From positions 26,955,649 through 27,019,648 of the forward strand of contig NC_092685.1 of NCBI RefSeq assembly GCF_964275005.1: 64,000 nucleotides of DNA, written 5' to 3'. A program made the translations under genes and the position numbers. Under the pieces are notes generated by a model. That model was not told the origin of the DNA. It saw only the letters and a program-made list of their open reading frames with translations, and did no database searches. Positions 10,570-64,000 of the stretch are shown piece after piece; within the stretch, counting starts at the first letter, position 1; each line of letters opens with the position of its first letter. The stretch is from Diadema setosum (taxonomy: Eukaryota; Echinodermata; Echinoidea; Diadematoida; Diadematidae).

Positions 10570-10725
10570 TGTGAAGTAGTGGCGGATCCAGGGGGCGCAC
10601 AGGGCGCGGGCCCCCTCTTATTTTTTTTTAAACATAAGAAATAAAAAGAAAAAGGGGACGTCCGCTCCCCCTTTAAGCCCCCCCCCCCCCCCACTTCGGA
10701 ATTCCTGGATCTGCCCCTGTGAAGT
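10570..10725. mobile_element. Rep-B copy 1: hAT-like MITE with 8 bp target-site duplication
   Basis: A ~140 bp element is flanked by TGTGAAGT at 10570-10577 and 10718-10725. Ends are inverted: left AGTGGCGGATCCAGG, right CCTGGATCTGCCCC. The interior has poly-T/A and a C run. An 8 bp duplication plus CAG-type ends is the signature of hAT elements. No coding capacity. Confidence 0.85.
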
Positions 10726-14656: not shown

Positions 14657-14925
14657 AGGGATGGTAATATAGTTTTGGTTGAGATGGTGATTCAGATTTT
14701 AACTTTTGGCGAATGGCGAGATAATTAGAAACCACCTATCATTTCAAAATATCAGAGACAGTGGCGAATCCAGAGGAGGGCGCAACTGGCCCACGCTCCC
14801 CCTTATTTTTCTTTAAAGACAAAAGAAATAAAAAATTCCTGGATCCACCCCTGAAAGAGCATGCAATTCTGAGGAATTAAAAGTTGATTTGATGAAAATA
14901 GAAAATAAAGTAAAACAAAGGCTGC
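14657..14925. mobile_element. Rep-A copy 2, interrupted by a Rep-B insertion
   Basis: The left end AGGGATGG and the following GGTTGAGATG match Rep-A. The body resumes after 14853 with GAGGAATT and GATGAAAAT words typical of Rep-A. The right end is lost. Rep-B (14758-14853) was inserted later. Confidence 0.65.
14758..14853. mobile_element. Rep-B copy 2: hAT-like MITE nested in Rep-A
   Basis: Left end CAGTGGCGAATCCAGAGG, right end CCTGGATCCACCCCTG, with the AAAGAAATAAAAA core shared with other copies. Confidence 0.8.
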
Positions 14926-22723: not shown

Positions 22724-23125
<402 letters not shown>

Positions 23126-23150
23126 ATACTTGTCCTTCGGTACATTCAAC

Positions 23151-23185
23151 GGCTCTTTTCAGAGCCACCATTCACTCAAGAAAGA
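23151..23185 (+). terminator. Histone mRNA 3' stem-loop and downstream element
   Basis: GGCTCTTTTCAGAGCC (23151-23166) is the canonical 6 bp stem with a 4-base loop bound by SLBP. CAAGAAAGA (23177-23185) is the purine-rich element that pairs with U7 snRNA. Together they direct cleavage without polyadenylation. The stem-loop starts 25 bases after the stop codon. Confidence 0.97.
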
Positions 23186-23189
23186 ATCT

Positions 23190-24880
23190 GAAGTTATCTC
23201 ACTTTTCTATGGCTTTTAATGTTATCGTATTGTAAACCAACAATCACTAACGTCAGATAAGGCACAGTATTCAGTAGTGAGACCCCCAACTTACTCAAGC
23301 CAAGCTTGTTGGTGTAGGCCTAGGTAGCGTATAACTTGTTAGAATCCACAACTGATGTTTTAGGTAGCTAGGGGTTCTAACCCTCTATTAACGTTAGACG
23401 CATTAGGCCCTATAGAGTAAGGTTCGTATGTGCCGATGTAACAAAATTTAGAATATATCTAGGCCTAACGTTAGCCTACTTTGAGATATCGGCTCTTGAG
23501 CTCTCCTCCGTTACAGGCATGTCGTTATGGGATCCGTGAAGCCAGACAGTCTCTCCGCGGAACCAGGGACTTTTAGGGAGGTGAGAGTGAGACCTCCTTG
23601 GCCTGGCGCGGCCTGGCGGAACATATCCCGGTGATCCCCGCGACGCGTATCGGGGGAAACTGGTGACTCTCAGGGTTCCCTATTTATTTCCTCCTCATTC
23701 TCTACGGTAGAAAATGATAAATTAATCTAACGTTAGGGGGTTCTCCTATCTATTTTACATGTTAACGTTAGAGGTCTAGTCAGTGTATCATTTTTCTCCC
23801 TCTCTTTTCAAAGCAGACTCATGAACAAGGGCAAAGCGGTGAGGCCTGGTGTCTATAATTAGGGGAAAGCATGTGATGTAACGTTAAGCATTTCTCTGAA
23901 TACCTTGACCCTACCATTATTGAATTGATACATTTTTGTGATCTTCGTACCTCCTTGGTGTTATTATTGCTATATTCACGTCACCATATAACATGTATAA
24001 TTAGACAATTTAGGCCTATGCAGAATCAATGATTTCAACTCGACTAGCGGCTTCTAACGTTAGAGGCTAGAGTATAAACGGTACAGATCCTATTGTTGTT
24101 TAGTGAGTAGGAACCTAACGTTAGTGCATGGTAAAGATTAGATGTAGGCCTATTTTAAACGTTAGATCTAACTTCTTCTACGTTCTAAACCTCATTTTCA
24201 ACGTTCAACTTCTGACACGTGTAGGCCTATTCGTTAGGCCTCATTATTACCAGAAAAGGCAGCGCATTGGAATAATCCAAATCTACTATAAAGTTCATAA
24301 TAAATTTGACCAGATTGAATAGTTTTCCTCAAACTGTTTTGGGTTTCTCCCAAAAGACACTGGTCTAACTTGTAACCGCACCCTTTGTGGCGACCCCAAA
24401 CATGCGTCCGGGGTTAGGGGTATAACCAACATAGGCCCTAGATCTAAATAAGTTACACCTAACCGGTTAGGCTATCTAGTTGATCACGCAACCAGCAACA
24501 CTAACGTGTTAAATATCTTTTTTTTTTTTTTTTTTTTTTTTTTATCTTTCTGCTCCTCAGGTCTAAAAATTCAAATTGCAGGTTTGTTTGTTTTGGGGTT
24601 TGTTTTTTTTTTGATAATTAATGTTTATATTTTTTTTGTTTGTTTGTTTTTGAGGGGGGAATTACCTTTTTCTCTCCCTAACGTTGGGCCTTCTCTTGTT
24701 TGTTATTGTCAATCTCCCTCGCCCCCACCCATCTCCCTCCCTCTCTTTCATGCCATTTTATACAAATCAGCATAATATTCATTCTGTGGGGGGGGGGGGG
24801 GAGGAGGATATCCCCACCCTCTCCCAAATTTTAATAAATGGATGGTAGAGTATTGCGAGATACAGTACTGTACTCGATAC
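23190..24880. repeat. Intergenic rich in TAACGTTAG words, poly-T and G run
   Basis: The palindrome-like word TAACGTTAG or close forms recurs roughly ten times between 23388 and 24690, often beside TAGGCCTA. A GC-richer patch lies at 23515-23680. A T run of 26 lies at 24518-24543 and a G run at 24787-24801. No gene recognised. Confidence 0.6.
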
Positions 24881-25452
24881 TTAAAGGCCAAGTTCACCTT
24901 CATAAACATAAGGATTGAGAGAATGCAGCAATATTAATAGAACACATCAGTGAAAGTTTGAAGAAAATTGGACAGTCGATGCAGAAGTTATGAATTTTTA
25001 AAATTTTTGTGTTGGAACCGCTGGATGAGGAGACTACTAAGGCTCGTGATGTCATATGAGTACAACAGCATAAAGAAAATGTAAAGAAAATTCAACATAT
25101 TTTCACTTTTTTCGCATAATAAAAGAGCACTTGACTTGCCTCTTTCTAAAGGCAATGGGAATAATATTACCCATAACATATGTCAATAACGAGTCAAGGG
25201 ATTGTGTACTTTTTTCAAAAGATGAAATTTTGTGAAATTCTCTTTATATTTTCCTTAGTCTATATTGTTGTACGCTTGTGACATCATACACTGTAGTTAG
25301 TCTTCTCATCCAGCGGTGACTGCACAAAAACTTCAAAAATTCATACTTTGGAACGGACTGTCCGATTTTCCTCAAACTTTCAATGATGTGTTCTACTAAT
25401 ATTGTTACATTCTCTCAATCCTTATGTTAGTGAAGGTGAACTTGTCCTTTAA
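24881..25452. mobile_element. Rep-H copy 1: TTAA-flanked palindromic MITE
   Basis: TTAA flanks at 24881-24884 and 25449-25452 enclose about 564 bp. The ends are inverted: left AGGCCAAGTTCACCTTCATA, right GTGAAGGTGAACTTGTCCT. The halves are complementary across most of the length. A frame that recurs in copy 2 reflects shared repeat sequence, not a gene. Confidence 0.88.
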
Positions 25453-25474
25453 AAATCACTTTATTAAAGAGCAG

Positions 25475-28363
25475 CAGTGACGGATCGAGGAGGGAGCGCA
25501 CCGGGTGCGCGCCCCACTTTATTTTCTGTTGAAACAAAAGAAATAAAAAGATAAAGATAAAGATAAATACTGTAGTAGACGGTGAGTTGTAATGTTCTTA
25601 AAATTTTCTGTAGATTTTGATTTTTTTGTGCTATTTCTCCTATTTTAGGAGTGCTGAACACGAATCCACTTGTTGCCATTTTTCTAACCAACGTCTTCAG
25701 CCGTTGCCATGGCAACGCATTATTTTCCTTAAAAGGACATGTAAGTTTATTCTTCATTAAACATCATAAAAACATGTTGTAAACACCAAAATATGTCATT
25801 ATAAACCCTCTTTAATCAAATCTAAAGAAATACAAATTTTGTGTCATGGTTACCTCATAGCAGTGACGGTTACCATGGCAGCAACTAATTATAAAGAAAA
25901 AATATATTTTCATGAAAAAGCAAGAAAATATGACAAGATTGAGTGGAATATTTATCATAAATTACTATCTTGATTATCAGCTTATTTTTCCACTATGTTC
26001 ATTTCACATCATTTTCGTTGCTATGGCAACAATTTGACAAAAGCTACCTTTTAAAGAAAAATAAGCATTGCGATTGAAAGAAAAGCAGGAATAAAATACG
26101 GTGGTAGGTGATAACTTTCTGTATAGTGAGATTTCTTTTGTGCTATTTCCCTTATTTTGGGGGTGCCAAACACGAATCCACCTGTTACCATATTTCTAAA
26201 TGACATATCTTTAGCCGTTGTCATGGCAACAAATTATTTTCTTTAAATGAACATGTATTCTTCATTAAACTATAAACACAAAAATAAGTCAATATAAACA
26301 TATCGCTTCAATCACATTATAAATCACAATTTCCGACTGTTACGGCTCCCTCATAGCAATGACGGTTGCCATGGTAACAGCTATTTAAAAAAATGTTTGT
26401 TTTTTTTAAAATCAAAAAGCATGAAAACATGAAAGGTTTGAGTAGCATACTCATTACAAATCATTATGATAATCATCAGGTTTTTTTTTTCACTATGTTC
26501 ATGCCACATTATTATCGTTGCTATGGCAACAACATGATTTTTTTTTCCCAGAAAGGAGAAGTATGTCATTTAAGAAAAAAAAAATCAATTTTCGTAGTGT
26601 TTAATTTAAAAAAAAATCAACAACAACAACAACAATCTATTCCTTAACAAGTTGTTGCCCTAGGAACAGAAATGATGTTCCATGAGCAGAATTATGTATG
26701 GCTAATAGTCTTGCTCATTATTGTAATACAGTACTTCAAAATTTAGGCCATAATTTCAAGATTTTTTCTTGAAGATTTTCTTTTTTTTTTCAAATTGATG
26801 CTTTTCCATGGCGACCATGTTAAATATTAACCATTATTACGGATATTTAAGGTTTTGAAGGTGCAATGTGATCAGAAATTCAGGACGTTGACTAAACTCT
26901 TGTGTTTTTACTTATTTGTTTTTTTGTCTGGTATATCCTTTCCTTCCTTATCTAATGATTAACGCTATTCTTTTCTTTAAAAAGCAGTTTTTCTCATGTT
27001 ATTGCTATATCAACAAAGACGATGTGGGATGAATATAGTTAAAAAAGTGTTAGTAATTTGTTATAAATATGCTACTCAATCTTGTCATTTTTTCATTTTT
27101 TTTTTCATTTTTTTTTTCATGAAGATAATATTTTTCTGTAATAAATTGTTGTTTCCATGACAACTGTCATTGTTATGAGGTAACCATGAAATTGGAAAAT
27201 TGTAATGTTTTACTAAATTAAATAGACATGTTTATGTTGACACATTTTGGTGTTAACAGCATATTTTCATGATGTTTAAAGAAGAACACAAGTTCTAAGT
27301 TTTAAAGAAAATAATTTGTTGCAATGGCAACGGCTGAAGACGTCATTTAGAAAAATGTCCACAGATGCATTTCCTGTTCAGCATCCCCAAAACAGAGGGA
27401 AGAGCACAAAAGATTTAAACTTTACAGAAATTTATCATTTGTTTATTTCATTCTTTCTTTCCTTTTTAATGAAACAGTTCTTCTTTCTATAAAAGAAAGT
27501 TTTTCTCATGTTGTTACCATAGCAACGATAATAATGTGGGATGAGCATAGTGAAAAAGAAAATCTGATAGTCATAATAGGACCTTACTAATGAATAACTA
27601 CTCAATCTTTTCATGTTTTCATGCTTTTTGATTTAAAAAAAAAAATCATTTTCTTTTAAAAATAGCTGTTACCATGGCAACCGTCATCGCTATGAGGTAG
27701 CTGTGACAATCGGAAATTGTGATTTTTGATTTAATCAAAGAAATATGTTTATATTGACATCTGTTGGAAATTACAGTATCTTTTATAATGTTTAATGAAG
27801 AATACATGTTCTTGTAAAGAAAATAATTTGTTGCCATGGCAACGGCTAAAGATGTATTTAGAAATATGGCAACATGTATTCGTGTAAGGAACATAGTGGG
27901 AAAAAAGCTGATAATCATGATAGTATAGTTCCATCAATATTCCACTCGATCTTGTCATATTTTCTTGCTTTTTCATGAAAATATCACTATTTCCTTGAAA
28001 AATAGTTGTAACCATGGCAACCATCGTTGCTATGAGGTAACCATGGCATGATAAGAATTGTGATTTTTAATTTGATTAAAGAGATGTTTATATTGACTCA
28101 TTTTGGTGTTTACAGCATGATTTTATGATGTTTAATGAAGAATACACGTTCTTCGTTGCCATGGCAACCGCTGAAGACGTCGGTTTGAAAAATGGCAACA
28201 GGTGGATTCGTGTTAAGCACCCCCAAAATAGGGGTAATTTGATGTAGCACAAAAAATCAAAATCTACAGAAAATTTTAAGAACACCCCAATGTTGTGACA
28301 ACTCGCCGTCTACTGAAAGGAGCGCGTGCGGCCCCCTTTTTACGGGATTCTGGATCCGCCCCT
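25475..28363. mobile_element. Rep-B copy 4, split by or expanded with the fold-back element
   Basis: The left piece (25475 to about 25550) starts CAGTGACGGATCGAGG and carries the AAAGAAATAAAAA core. The right piece (about 28315-28363) ends CTGGATCCGCCCCTG. Between them lies the 2.7 kb fold-back. Either the fold-back inserted into Rep-B or Rep-B ends mobilise it as cargo. Confidence 0.65.
25574..28314. mobile_element. 2.7 kb fold-back element with repeated X-box motifs
   Basis: Inverted ends start AGTAGACGGTGAGTTGT on the left; the right end is its complement ACAACTCGCCGTCTACT. Arms are built of ~0.5 kb units: two on the left (landmark CACGAATCCAC at about 25660 and 26171) and three on the right (complement landmarks near 27366, 27877 and 28204), around a spacer at about 26560-26990. 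About a dozen copies of a 14 bp palindrome occur; three are exactly GTTGCCATGGCAAC (25703, 27830, 28155) and others differ by one or two bases (for example 26017, 26217, 26365, 26517, 27318, 27513, 27668, 28008). There is no coding capacity. The plan resembles fold-back elements such as the sea urchin TU elements. Confidence 0.82.
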
Positions 28364-28708
28364 GAAGTTTATTTGACAAATATATCTAACTAGAATCGGT
28401 TTTGAAAAGGTTGATTTATTTTTACAAAGACAAAGTATAGCCTTAAACAAATTAAAACAAAGCAATCCTAATAAAAGATGGGTTCCATCGTTTTAAATTA
28501 GGATTGCTTTGTTTGGATATCTCAGCCATTTCACAACCAATTTTAGACAATAAACTTTGAATTCCTCTTAGAATTGTGATCTTTCATAACATCTGCAGGT
28601 TTCTCGTCTTACCAAAAGATAAAATAAAATAAATGAATAATAAATCATCAAAAAAACCGTTAAAAACCTGAAGCCCCATCTCAACCGAAACTATGCCATC
28701 CCTTTTAA
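28364..28708. mobile_element. Rep-A copy 4 abutting the Rep-B end
   Basis: The right end is GCCATCCCT followed by TTTAAAG, matching the inverted Rep-A terminus and a TTAA target. The words TTAGGATTGCTTTGTTTGGA and ATCTCAGCCATTTCACAACC match the family. Its other end is missing where it meets Rep-B. Confidence 0.75.
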
Positions 28709-53200: not shown

Positions 53201-53513
53201 TTGCAGGTACGCATAGATCTCACAGTTCGAGGAGCATCATTTTTATGTGTAATTTTGTAGCACATGGACTTGGATGAGCTGGATTTAAAATGCTATAATT
53301 AGTACAATCCTAGTCCAGCAAAGCTAGCAGTTTTTTCCCCATGCAATGAATGTATTAAAGTTACTTTGAAATGATTTACAGTTTCTTAGTCTGAAGATAT
53401 ATTGATATTCTATCAATACCATAGCAAGAGATTGGAAATTAAAAAGACACGGGTGAGCATAGCAATCTGAAGGAACTGTAGCTTTCATGTACTGCAGGCA
53501 GTCAAATCTACCT
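50219..53513. other. No secure gene; one weak exon candidate
   Basis: GT repeats at 52730-52755 and a C run at 52815-52828. A 119-base open stretch at 50790-50908 with a CPNC motif and a GAAG|GTATGA donor is the only exon-like segment, and its acceptor is poor. Confidence 0.4.
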
Positions 53514-54071
53514 TTAAAGGACAAGTTCACCTTCATTAACATAAGGATTGAGAGAATGTAGCAATATTAGTAGAACACATCACTGAAAATTTGAGGAAAA
53601 TCGGACAATCCATTCAAAAGTTATGAATTTTTGAAGTTTTTGTGCAGTCACTGCTGGATGAGAAGACTACTACAGTGTATGATGTCACATGCATACAACA
53701 ATATAAGGAAAATATAAAGAGAATTTCACAAAATTTCATCTTTTGAAAAAAGTACACATTCCCTTGACTCGTTACTGACATATGTTGTGGGTAATATTAT
53801 TCCCATTGCCTTTAGAAAGAGGCAAGTCAAGTGCTCTTTTATTATGCGAAAAAAAGTCAAAATATGTTGAATTTTCTTTACATTTTCTTTATACAGTTGT
53901 ACTCATCACGAGCCTTAGTAGTCTCCTCATCCAGCGGTTCCAAGAAAAAAGTTTTAAAAATTCATAACTTTTGCATCGATTGTCCAATTTTCCTCAAACT
54001 GTGTTTGTGTTCTACTAATATTGCTGCATTCTCTTAATCTTTATGTTAATGAAGGTGAACTTATCCTTTAA
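53514..54071. mobile_element. Rep-H copy 3: TTAA-flanked palindromic MITE
   Basis: TTAA at 53514-53517 and 54068-54071 encloses 550 bp with the same inverted ends as copy 1 (AGGACAAGTTCACCTTCATT). It is in opposite inner orientation to copy 1. Confidence 0.9.
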
Positions 54072-54157: not shown

Positions 54158-54316
54158 GGGCCCTGTTTCATAAAAGATGTTAGGATGGCAACTCTTGCTG
54201 GAATGGCAACTTCCAATAGCAACAGCCAATCAGGAAGCTGGATTCTTGTCGTTACCATGACAATTGTCATTCCAGCAAGAGTTGTCATCTTATCAACCTT
54301 TTATGAAATGGGGCCC
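54158..54316. mobile_element. Rep-C copy 1: palindromic MITE
   Basis: The ends GGGCCCTGTTTCATAAAAG and TTTTATGAAATGGGGCCC are inverted, followed by AACTCTTGCTGGAATGGCAA and its inverse. The centre has AGCCAATCAGGAAGCTGG. It contains GTTACCATGACAAT, an X-box-like word. Confidence 0.85.
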
Positions 54317-62636: not shown

Positions 62637-62793
62637 GGCCTTATTTCATAAAAAGTTGATATGATAGCAACTCTTGCTGGAATGGCAATTGTCATGGTAA
62701 CGACAAGAATCCAGCTTCCTGATTGGCTGTTACTATGGAAAGTTGCAATTCCAGCAAGAGTTGCTATCCTAACATCTTTTATGAAATGGGGCC
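62637..62793. mobile_element. Rep-C copy 2, opposite orientation
   Basis: Matches copy 1 at 54158-54316 inverted: ends TTATTTCATAAAAAGTTG and TTTTATGAAATGGGGCCC, inner AACTCTTGCTGGAATGGCAA and its inverse, and centre CAGCTTCCTGATTGGCTG. Confidence 0.85.
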
Positions 62794-64000
62794 CAGGTAG
62801 CATGAGGATTCATGGGTATCCCAATTTATTCGTTGCGCACTGGGTACGTCAGAAAAACACAAATAGCACTGGTCAGCGAATATTTGCATCGGAGCATATG
62901 CGCATTGGTATCGATCGACTCCAGTCAAGATTTTGCGGCTCTGTTTGTACTTACACGTATATTGAGATCAGTCCCATGTACACAAATTGTTACGGGGATT
63001 CTCGAATATATCCGACCCAGGTCAGCCTCCATGCTATATAAATCTCCACACTACAGGGTCTAAATTTTAAGTGAGCTTTTCAATTCTGTGGCATTATAAT
63101 TTTGTAAGGCATCGCTAGAATGTAGATCCACTCGTCAATTGTGTTTAGTAAAGATGCAAGAGTGAATCTGAATTAGACAGCAAACAAACGTCTTGCCACT
63201 TTTGTGTTATTTTGAATTAGTTTAAAAGCTCTTTGCATTTCATGTTGTAAACTCCCTGTGTGCAGCATTGTTCTGAGATTGCAAAGTATGAATGCTTTTG
63301 GAAAACTTTTCATTTTTTAACGCCATGTAATTTCTTATTGAAGCATTCTTGCTAGAAAGGGTTGTGGAGAAACTTGCAAGCTTTGCTGGGATATTAAGTT
63401 TATGATAAGGCTATAGCTATGATGCCTTCAATGTGCAGTCGCATAGTTTGATCGGTTTGTTCGCGGTTGTGCGTTTGAGCCAAATATGAGAAGTTGGCAA
63501 GCCGTCAACTGAGTCTGGCTTTCAAACGTTGGCACCAAAGCAGTTGAGGATCACATTATACTGCTATAGGCAGTGTTCCAGAATGGTGTTACTCTAGATC
63601 TCTATTTCTGCCTTCCCAAGACAGCGGAATGACATCCTGGTGGATATTTAAGAATGAGTTGCGGTTTGGATGTGCCTTTATAGAGACTGGTGGGTATCAG
63701 ATTCCCAGTGAATGCTCACGTCCCAAGCTCTTTGACAGCATGTCCTGTGTCATGTCCTGAATGCTTTCGAGTTAATACCAGGTAATTTCTGATGCTTAAA
63801 AACTCTTGTGAACCTTCTTCCATCCTTTCTACAAGCATCCTGTTTCAGTGTCTTTCTGATCACTGCGATCACATTTTTCATATTTCTAAAGTACAGACAT
63901 TGACATTTGTGATATTACTTCCTTCAAATGAACACAAACTGACCAACCAACCGACCCCTCTCTATCCCCTTCCTACTCCAAGAAAAGAACCTAATGTAAT
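62794..64000. other. Right edge of the window, no gene recognised
   Basis: Unremarkable AT-rich sequence; no exon, RNA gene or repeat family identified. Confidence 0.45.

Follow-up and report, generated by a model that had tools for sequence, protein, structure and literature searches.

An X-box ladder in a foldback DNA transposon of the sea urchin Diadema setosum and its possible relation to host RFX proteins

Introduction

Why would a transposable element carry about a dozen near-perfect copies of a motif that resembles the binding site of a host transcription factor? The question is raised by a locus on contig NC_092685.1 of Diadema setosum, which lies in a stretch of 64,000 nucleotides that was analysed as a whole and is referred to here as the window. 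A first-pass annotation, made from the letters of the window alone, described an inverted-repeat element with units of about 0.5 kb and a 14-bp palindrome that recurs in them, and it read this palindrome as the X-box of RFX transcription factors, for which the accessible part of PMC3414849 gives the consensus GTNRCCN{0-3}RGYAAC. It also suggested that the motif spreads with a foldback transposon, is more conserved than its surroundings and may serve the life cycle of the element. Here, we compare the window with itself and with the genome of the species (912.7 Mb in 102 contigs), and we weigh RFX binding against other explanations for the persistence of the boxes.

Results

Extent and architecture of the element

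Self-comparison of the window confirms both the inverted-repeat structure and the units of about 0.5 kb, and a pair of terminal inverted repeats (TIRs) now places the exact ends of this family 1 foldback element at 25575 and 28313 (25575..28313, no strand assigned). Comparison of the TIR pair puts the left TIR, GTAGACGGTGAGTTG, at 25575..25589 on the plus strand and the right TIR, GTAGACGGCGAGTTG in minus-strand reading, at 28299..28313 on the minus strand; the terminal inverted repeat of the element is given as GTAGACGGCGAGTTGT, and the ends of the family are also written GTAGACGG. When the ends of the window element are set against other copies, most of the listed matches stop within a few bases and a few overrun by about 20 bases. 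The letters of the window show a TA dinucleotide at the left end (25573..25574, no strand), as against TG in the right flank at 28314-28315. In the sampled stretches of family 1 copies, TA lies directly outside 41 of 44 distinct ends, in agreement with a target site of the Tc1/mariner type.

The arms consist of units of about 505 bp, with an arm-to-arm identity of 70-79% in the self-comparison, so that the element has the long inverted terminal repeats containing tandem repeats that characterise foldback elements. Self-comparison and a scan for sites locate the units and their X-boxes as follows. In the left arm, on the plus strand, unit 1 (25602..26112) has X-boxes A at 25703, B at 25869 and C at 26017, and unit 2 (26113..26588) has X-boxes at 26217, 26365 and 26517. 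The centre (26654..27014, no strand) holds decayed X-box-like rungs at 26654, 26802 and 27001, which differ from the degenerate form GTTRCYATRGYAAC at 2, 3 and 2 positions, respectively. The units of the right arm are inverted and lie on the minus strand: one at 26935..27433 with X-boxes at 27151 and 27318 in addition to the decayed site at 27001, one at 27447..27885 with X-boxes at 27513, 27668 and 27830 (exact), and an outer one at 27889..28275 with X-boxes at 28008 and 28155 (exact).

The element appears to have inserted within a short repeat, CAGTGACGGATC...GGATCCGCCCCTG. Its left part, which starts with CAGTGACGGATC, was recognised by eye at 25475..25572 on the plus strand and its right part, which ends with GGATCCGCCCCTG, at about 28316-28364, also by eye; in the self-comparison, stretches elsewhere in the window resemble the left part, at 10575-10654 and 14759-14834. 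Several other features of the neighbourhood were observed. Just left of the X-box element is another inverted-repeat element of about 0.5 kb (24876-25457), with an apparent copy at about 53513-54071. Short inverted-repeat elements at 54158-54316 and about 62640-62800 have GGGCCC and TTTCATAAAA near their ends and contain several half X-box-like GGCAAC/GTTACC motifs. An H2A gene (22724-23125; gene region 22724-23190) with a canonical histone 3' stem-loop lies about 2.4 kb from the element.

Copies elsewhere in the genome

The proposal of a foldback transposon with further genomic copies is borne out by a DNA search with the element, which gave at least 287 matches (40 scored of 1101 candidates), and by the end sequence TAGTAGACGGCGAGTTGT, which at up to one mismatch has 97 matches in the genome versus 2 for the reversed control. 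Manual grouping of the listed family 1 matches yields about 35 places, of which 15 were sampled with full flanks (L035-L049) and others in part (L005-L034). Two-ended copies span 1.8-10.5 kb and their middles differ from copy to copy; such dispersed copies with common ends and a variable middle again fit the definition of a foldback element.

No transposase was recognised in the copies examined, whose frames were inspected by eye. Two larger TIR-bounded copies were considered as candidates for the autonomous partner; by eye, neither the 3.4-kb copy L055 nor the 10.5-kb copy (L056 with L037, C9:22744752-22755318) has a recognisable transposase. The latter contains reverse-transcriptase-like frames, also seen by eye, which suggests that a retrotransposon has inserted within it. 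Positions 25575-28313 of the window hold a single copy of a foldback DNA transposon that is non-autonomous and occupies TA sites.

The X-box ladder inside the element

The exact palindrome GTTGCCATGGCAAC is found three times in the window, at 25703, 27830 and 28155. Allowing up to two mismatches, there are 13 sites in the window and 13 of 13 fall inside the element, compared with a mean of 0.25 and a maximum of 2 in 100 shuffled windows. The degenerate form GTTRCYATRGYAAC at up to one mismatch has 12 sites in the element and none in the rest of the window. The X-boxes noticed at first reading are therefore present as such, with three exact sites and 12 within one mismatch of the degenerate form, all of which agrees with the RFX consensus, and they amount to about three per ~505-bp unit at distances of about 150-190 bp. 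Viewed along the whole element, including its middle, they make up a 16-rung ladder with X-box-like sites 137-200 bp apart (mean about 163 bp), a count that includes decayed sites, four of which depart from the degenerate form at 2 or 3 positions. The 15 copy regions have 6-23 sites each at up to three mismatches; distances close to 165, 149 and 190 bp are seen repeatedly across them, with gaps where rungs have been lost.

X-boxes and ladders genome-wide

The genome contains 2,076 exact copies of GTTGCCATGGCAAC, while about 3 are expected from the genome size divided by 4 to the 14th and the reversed control has 0. This count, together with the shuffled windows (maximum 2 versus 13 sites), rules out a chance palindrome. 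The idea of family 1 as the main source of these boxes finds no support either: the site-A context AGCC accompanies 133 of the 2,076 exact boxes, a number that is a lower bound for family 1. The GGTAAC form of the box, GTTGCCATGGTAAC, occurs 9,238 times. Among the first 100 places listed for this form, all on contig C1, 92 are clustered, and their commonest spacings are 146 and 159-163 bp. Paired GTTGCCATGGYAAC matches number 4,967 at 145-174 bp, 342 at 115-144 bp and 38 at 175-204 bp, with all reversed controls at 0; these counts cover both strands, so that a two-palindrome pair is counted twice, and 4 such repeats occur among the 38 rows for 175-204 bp.

Four loci picked for closely spaced exact boxes or runs of them (L050-L053) contain 4-15 rungs each of a second family, arranged as tandem arrays with a period of about 150-165 bp. 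One of them, at L050:1431-4130, has 15 rungs about 146-165 bp apart. L050 also has a 5' subterminal inverted repeat, a complementary repeat, a (GGTC)n microsatellite, the repeat array and a 3' subterminal repeat, and by eye a short 3' palindrome. The hallmarks of Helentron-associated elements are complete in this one of the four loci and their 5' part is partly present in L052, while none were seen in the stretches of L051 and L053 examined. Judged by its arrangement, the L050 copy of family 2 looks like a rolling-circle, Helentron-associated element. Related flanks link families 2, 4 and 5, and a weak similarity joins those of family 1 site A to family 2, which means that the families are not fully independent. 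A third dispersed repeat contains one exact X-box, set in a context like GATATTGCTGGTTGCCATGGCAACCGTAAACTGACAACCATG (L001:1501, L003:1501, L053:3680 and L054:1360).

Conservation of the boxes against their flanks

To compare boxes with flanks, 231 partial and full matches were reduced to 62 near-full units and to 59 once identical ones had been dropped. These 59 distinct near-full family 1 units come from 40 stretches. The comparison covered the window, those of L035-L056 that matched, and 26 of 30 loci in the set L005-L034. Their consensus boxes are GTTGCCATGGCAAC at A, GTTACCATGGCAAC at B and GTTGCTATAGCAAC at C. Mismatch amounts to 2.1% at A, 6.6% at B and 4.2% at C, versus a mean of 10.7% for all 14-bp windows, and among 482 windows A ranks 1, C 29 and B 110 in conservation. 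When the three boxes are shifted jointly around the unit, none of 481 circular shifts is as low. The difference is also seen for the individual bases, with G and C mismatch of 2.4% and 7.0% inside the boxes and 16.0% and 16.5% outside. Family 1 boxes show stronger conservation than the sequence flanking them, most clearly at site A (rank 1 of 482; joint shift 0 of 481), and the equal divergence that the first-pass annotation had named as the alternative was not found.

A flank-anchored check, in which the boxes were left out of the anchors and places were kept at up to three mismatches to the degenerate form, retained 71 of 96 places at A, 69 of 87 at B and 63 of 68 at C. The dropped anchors, with four or more mismatches (25/96, 18/87 and 5/68, respectively), have no recognisable box and represent box loss or misplacement; leaving them out biases the substitution rates downwards, which are 21 of 994 positions at A, 126 of 966 at B and 64 of 882 at C. 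At site B, 102 of the 126 substitutions are transitions at positions 4, 6, 9 or 11. Degenerate half-site positions take 5 of the 21 substitutions at A and 26 of the 64 at C.

Family 2 (25 units from 4 loci) gives a similar picture, with a box mismatch of 5.4% versus 22.2% elsewhere and rank 1 of 147; its units were chosen by a left flank without the box, and the reference row of the alignment did contain the X-box. Of its box changes, 12 of 19 are C/T at position 11; the other 7 lie off this Y position and include 3 at position 14.

When the constraint acted

Variants confined to a single unit would mostly post-date insertion, and variants common to several units would mostly pre-date it. For both counts, columns outside the boxes were used where letters made up at least 80%. 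In family 1, shared variants per site per sequence are 0.033 in the boxes and 0.102 outside, with 0 of 479 shifts as low, whereas private variants (singletons) are 0.0094 and 0.0118, which 67 of 479 shifts match and is not significant. Family 2 has shared variants of 0.043 in the boxes versus 0.193 outside (0 of 155 shifts as low) and singletons of 0.011 versus 0.026 (15 of 155). Compared by variant types, the contrast between singletons and shared variants has P = 0.06 in family 1 and P = 0.21 in family 2. The ratio of box to flank divergence is 0.51 for the closest unit pairs (flank distance <0.1) and drops to 0.37-0.39 for distant pairs. With these P values and a ratio of 0.51 already in the closest pairs, the timing of the constraint is not cleanly separated. 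We have moderate confidence that selection, as read from these variants, acted mainly on active elements, before insertion. The suggestion that the X-boxes are used in the element's own life cycle is favoured by the deficit of shared variants (0/479), as compared with private ones (67/479).

Agreement with RFX binding

By the RFX consensus, tolerance is expected at Y (position 11) and at R (position 9). The Y-position variant GTTGCCATGGTAAC, in which both half-sites still read RGYAAC although the whole is not a perfect palindrome, has 9,238 occurrences in the genome, versus 580 and 532 for the control changes G10>A and C14>T. A comparable excess predicted for the R position failed to appear, as the variant GTTGCCATAGCAAC, with 489 occurrences, is no commoner than these controls. 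Taken at face value, the genome-wide variants would fit RFX tolerance strongly at Y and not at R, and large families may have inflated the excess at Y through a founder effect. Changes at position 14 are common at site C, with C>T in 15 of 63 kept places of the flank-anchored check and C>A in 9 of 56 lettered rows of the unit alignment; they count against RFX, for which intolerance is expected there.

Exons of the RFX DNA-binding domain give 10 matches at about 6 places in the genome, without expansion, which rules out a transposon-borne RFX domain. In adult mouse spermatogonia RFX2 is robustly expressed, according to the accessible part of PMC11999699; by analogy this makes RFX activity in the germ line plausible, and it is silent on Diadema setosum.

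Discussion

What keeps the boxes in place while the sequence around them diverges? Our main reading, to which we give a probability of roughly one half on the patterns in the genome, is that host RFX proteins bind the ladders and that this binding helped the elements to propagate. In the most probable scenario, RFX dimers of the host would bind the boxes, one for each nucleosome-length of DNA, and would hold the element open or phased where RFX is active, which may be in germ cells or in ciliated cells of the embryo. A transposase supplied in trans could then reach the opened element. A similar ladder occurs in other repeat families of the genome, one copy of which looks Helentron-like.

In the main rival to RFX binding, the element's transposase would recognise the 14-mer as a subterminal site present in several copies, and the likeness to the X-box would be coincidental. 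Galileo indeed has subterminal repeats with extra transposase sites, as described in the accessible part of PMC4079207, and a role in transposition would fit the deficit of shared variants. However, the same 14-mer is the best-conserved stretch of family 2, of which one copy is Helentron-associated in structure and would thus depend on a different enzyme, so that the same box is unlikely to be a transposase site; this is the main counter-argument. A full match to a known 14-bp consensus would moreover be an unlikely coincidence, and the RFX domain itself is not expanded (10 matches, about 6 places). We consider the transposase explanation unlikely.

It is likewise unlikely that the palindrome persists for structural reasons, as a cruciform, as a hotspot of recombination or gene conversion, or through satellite-like homogenisation, without a role for a specific protein. 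An inverted and tandem layout does promote conversion and unequal exchange, and the accessible parts of two papers describe satellite-like monomers of about 168 bp in oyster (PMC7492417) and bivalve BIV160/Cg170 repeats that have two conserved motifs in common (PMC5139131), so that a comparable period is seen where no connection to RFX is stated. Yet the commonest form counted, GTTGCCATGGTAAC (9,238), is not a perfect palindrome, its asymmetry falling on the Y of RGYAAC, and conversion would be expected to homogenise the flanks as well.

That the host has co-opted fixed copies as RFX-responsive enhancers, with host-level selection keeping the boxes, we regard as improbable. The strength of the boxes and the number of copies speak for it, as do the pig SINEs that spread RFX sites (PMC10471783, accessible part), the slight, non-significant shortage of private variants in the boxes and the ratio of 0.51 in the closest pairs, but the private-variant deficit is not significant in either family (67/479 in family 1, 15/155 in family 2). 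Descent alone, from boxes in one ancestral ~160-bp repeat that have not yet decayed, is highly improbable: kinship is seen among the flanks of families 2, 4 and 5 and, weakly, between family 1 A and family 2, but flanks of the same age are far more diverged than the boxes, and the box/flank ratio drops from 0.51 in the closest pairs to 0.37-0.39 in distant ones.

If RFX binding indeed helped the elements to propagate, a wider and more tentative proposal can be made. RFX ladders at nucleosome-repeat spacing might be a module that TA cut-and-paste foldback elements and Helentron-like rolling-circle elements both exploit for accessible, phased chromatin in RFX-active germ or ciliated cells, and more than ten thousand high-affinity sites could buffer or rewire the RFX network. 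The genome has more than 11,000 near-ideal RFX sites (2,076 exact boxes plus 9,238 with GGTAAC), many of which stand in arrays with a ~160-bp period, and sites in such numbers would titrate and rewire a conserved ciliary and spermatogenic regulator. The recurrence of such ladders at thousands of genomic places suggests that a host regulator is put to use by the mobile DNA of this species. The contrast between singletons and shared variants makes it testable whether transposons keep host-factor sites for their own spread or whether the host keeps them afterwards.

Among foldback elements of echinoids, the TU elements of sea urchin are modular, with 15-bp repeats and 8-bp target duplications. 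The window element differs from them in its TA target and its ~505-bp units. Tetris and Galileo, foldback elements of Drosophila, are alike in having inverted arms with tandem repeats and in being non-autonomous, and for Tetris, too, the autonomous partner was not found (PMC4079207, accessible part). Unlike these, the window element has TA-flanked ends, units of ~505 bp with three X-boxes and a motif of RFX consensus, and the accessible text of PMC4079207 does not mention an X-box-type motif for Tetris or Galileo.

By the criteria in the accessible part of PMC7492417, the HINE elements of bivalves (pearl/Cg_HINE) resemble family 2 through the hallmarks of L050 and its ~146-165-bp repeats; the window element is unlike HINE, as the Helentron-associated likeness belongs to family 2. 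A search for the string CCATGG in the main texts of two papers on bivalve repeats, PMC5139131 and PMC8268682, finds it in neither. Foldback arrays, Helentron-associated arrays and the amplification of RFX motifs in pig SINEs (PMC10471783, accessible part) are thus already known, whereas an X-box ladder in a DNA transposon with a deficit of shared variants was not found in the accessible literature outside subscription journals and supplements. The pig SINEs are alike in that a mobile element carries and spreads RFX-family motifs, and they differ in being retroelements, for which the accessible part of PMC10471783 mentions neither a ladder nor a ~160-bp period. In sequence the boxes agree with the X-box of ciliary genes, as both GTTGCCATGGCAAC and GTNRCCN{0-3}RGYAAC occur in the element; typical ciliary targets have a single upstream site, as far as the accessible part of PMC3414849 describes them, whereas family 1 copy regions have 6-23 at up to three mismatches.
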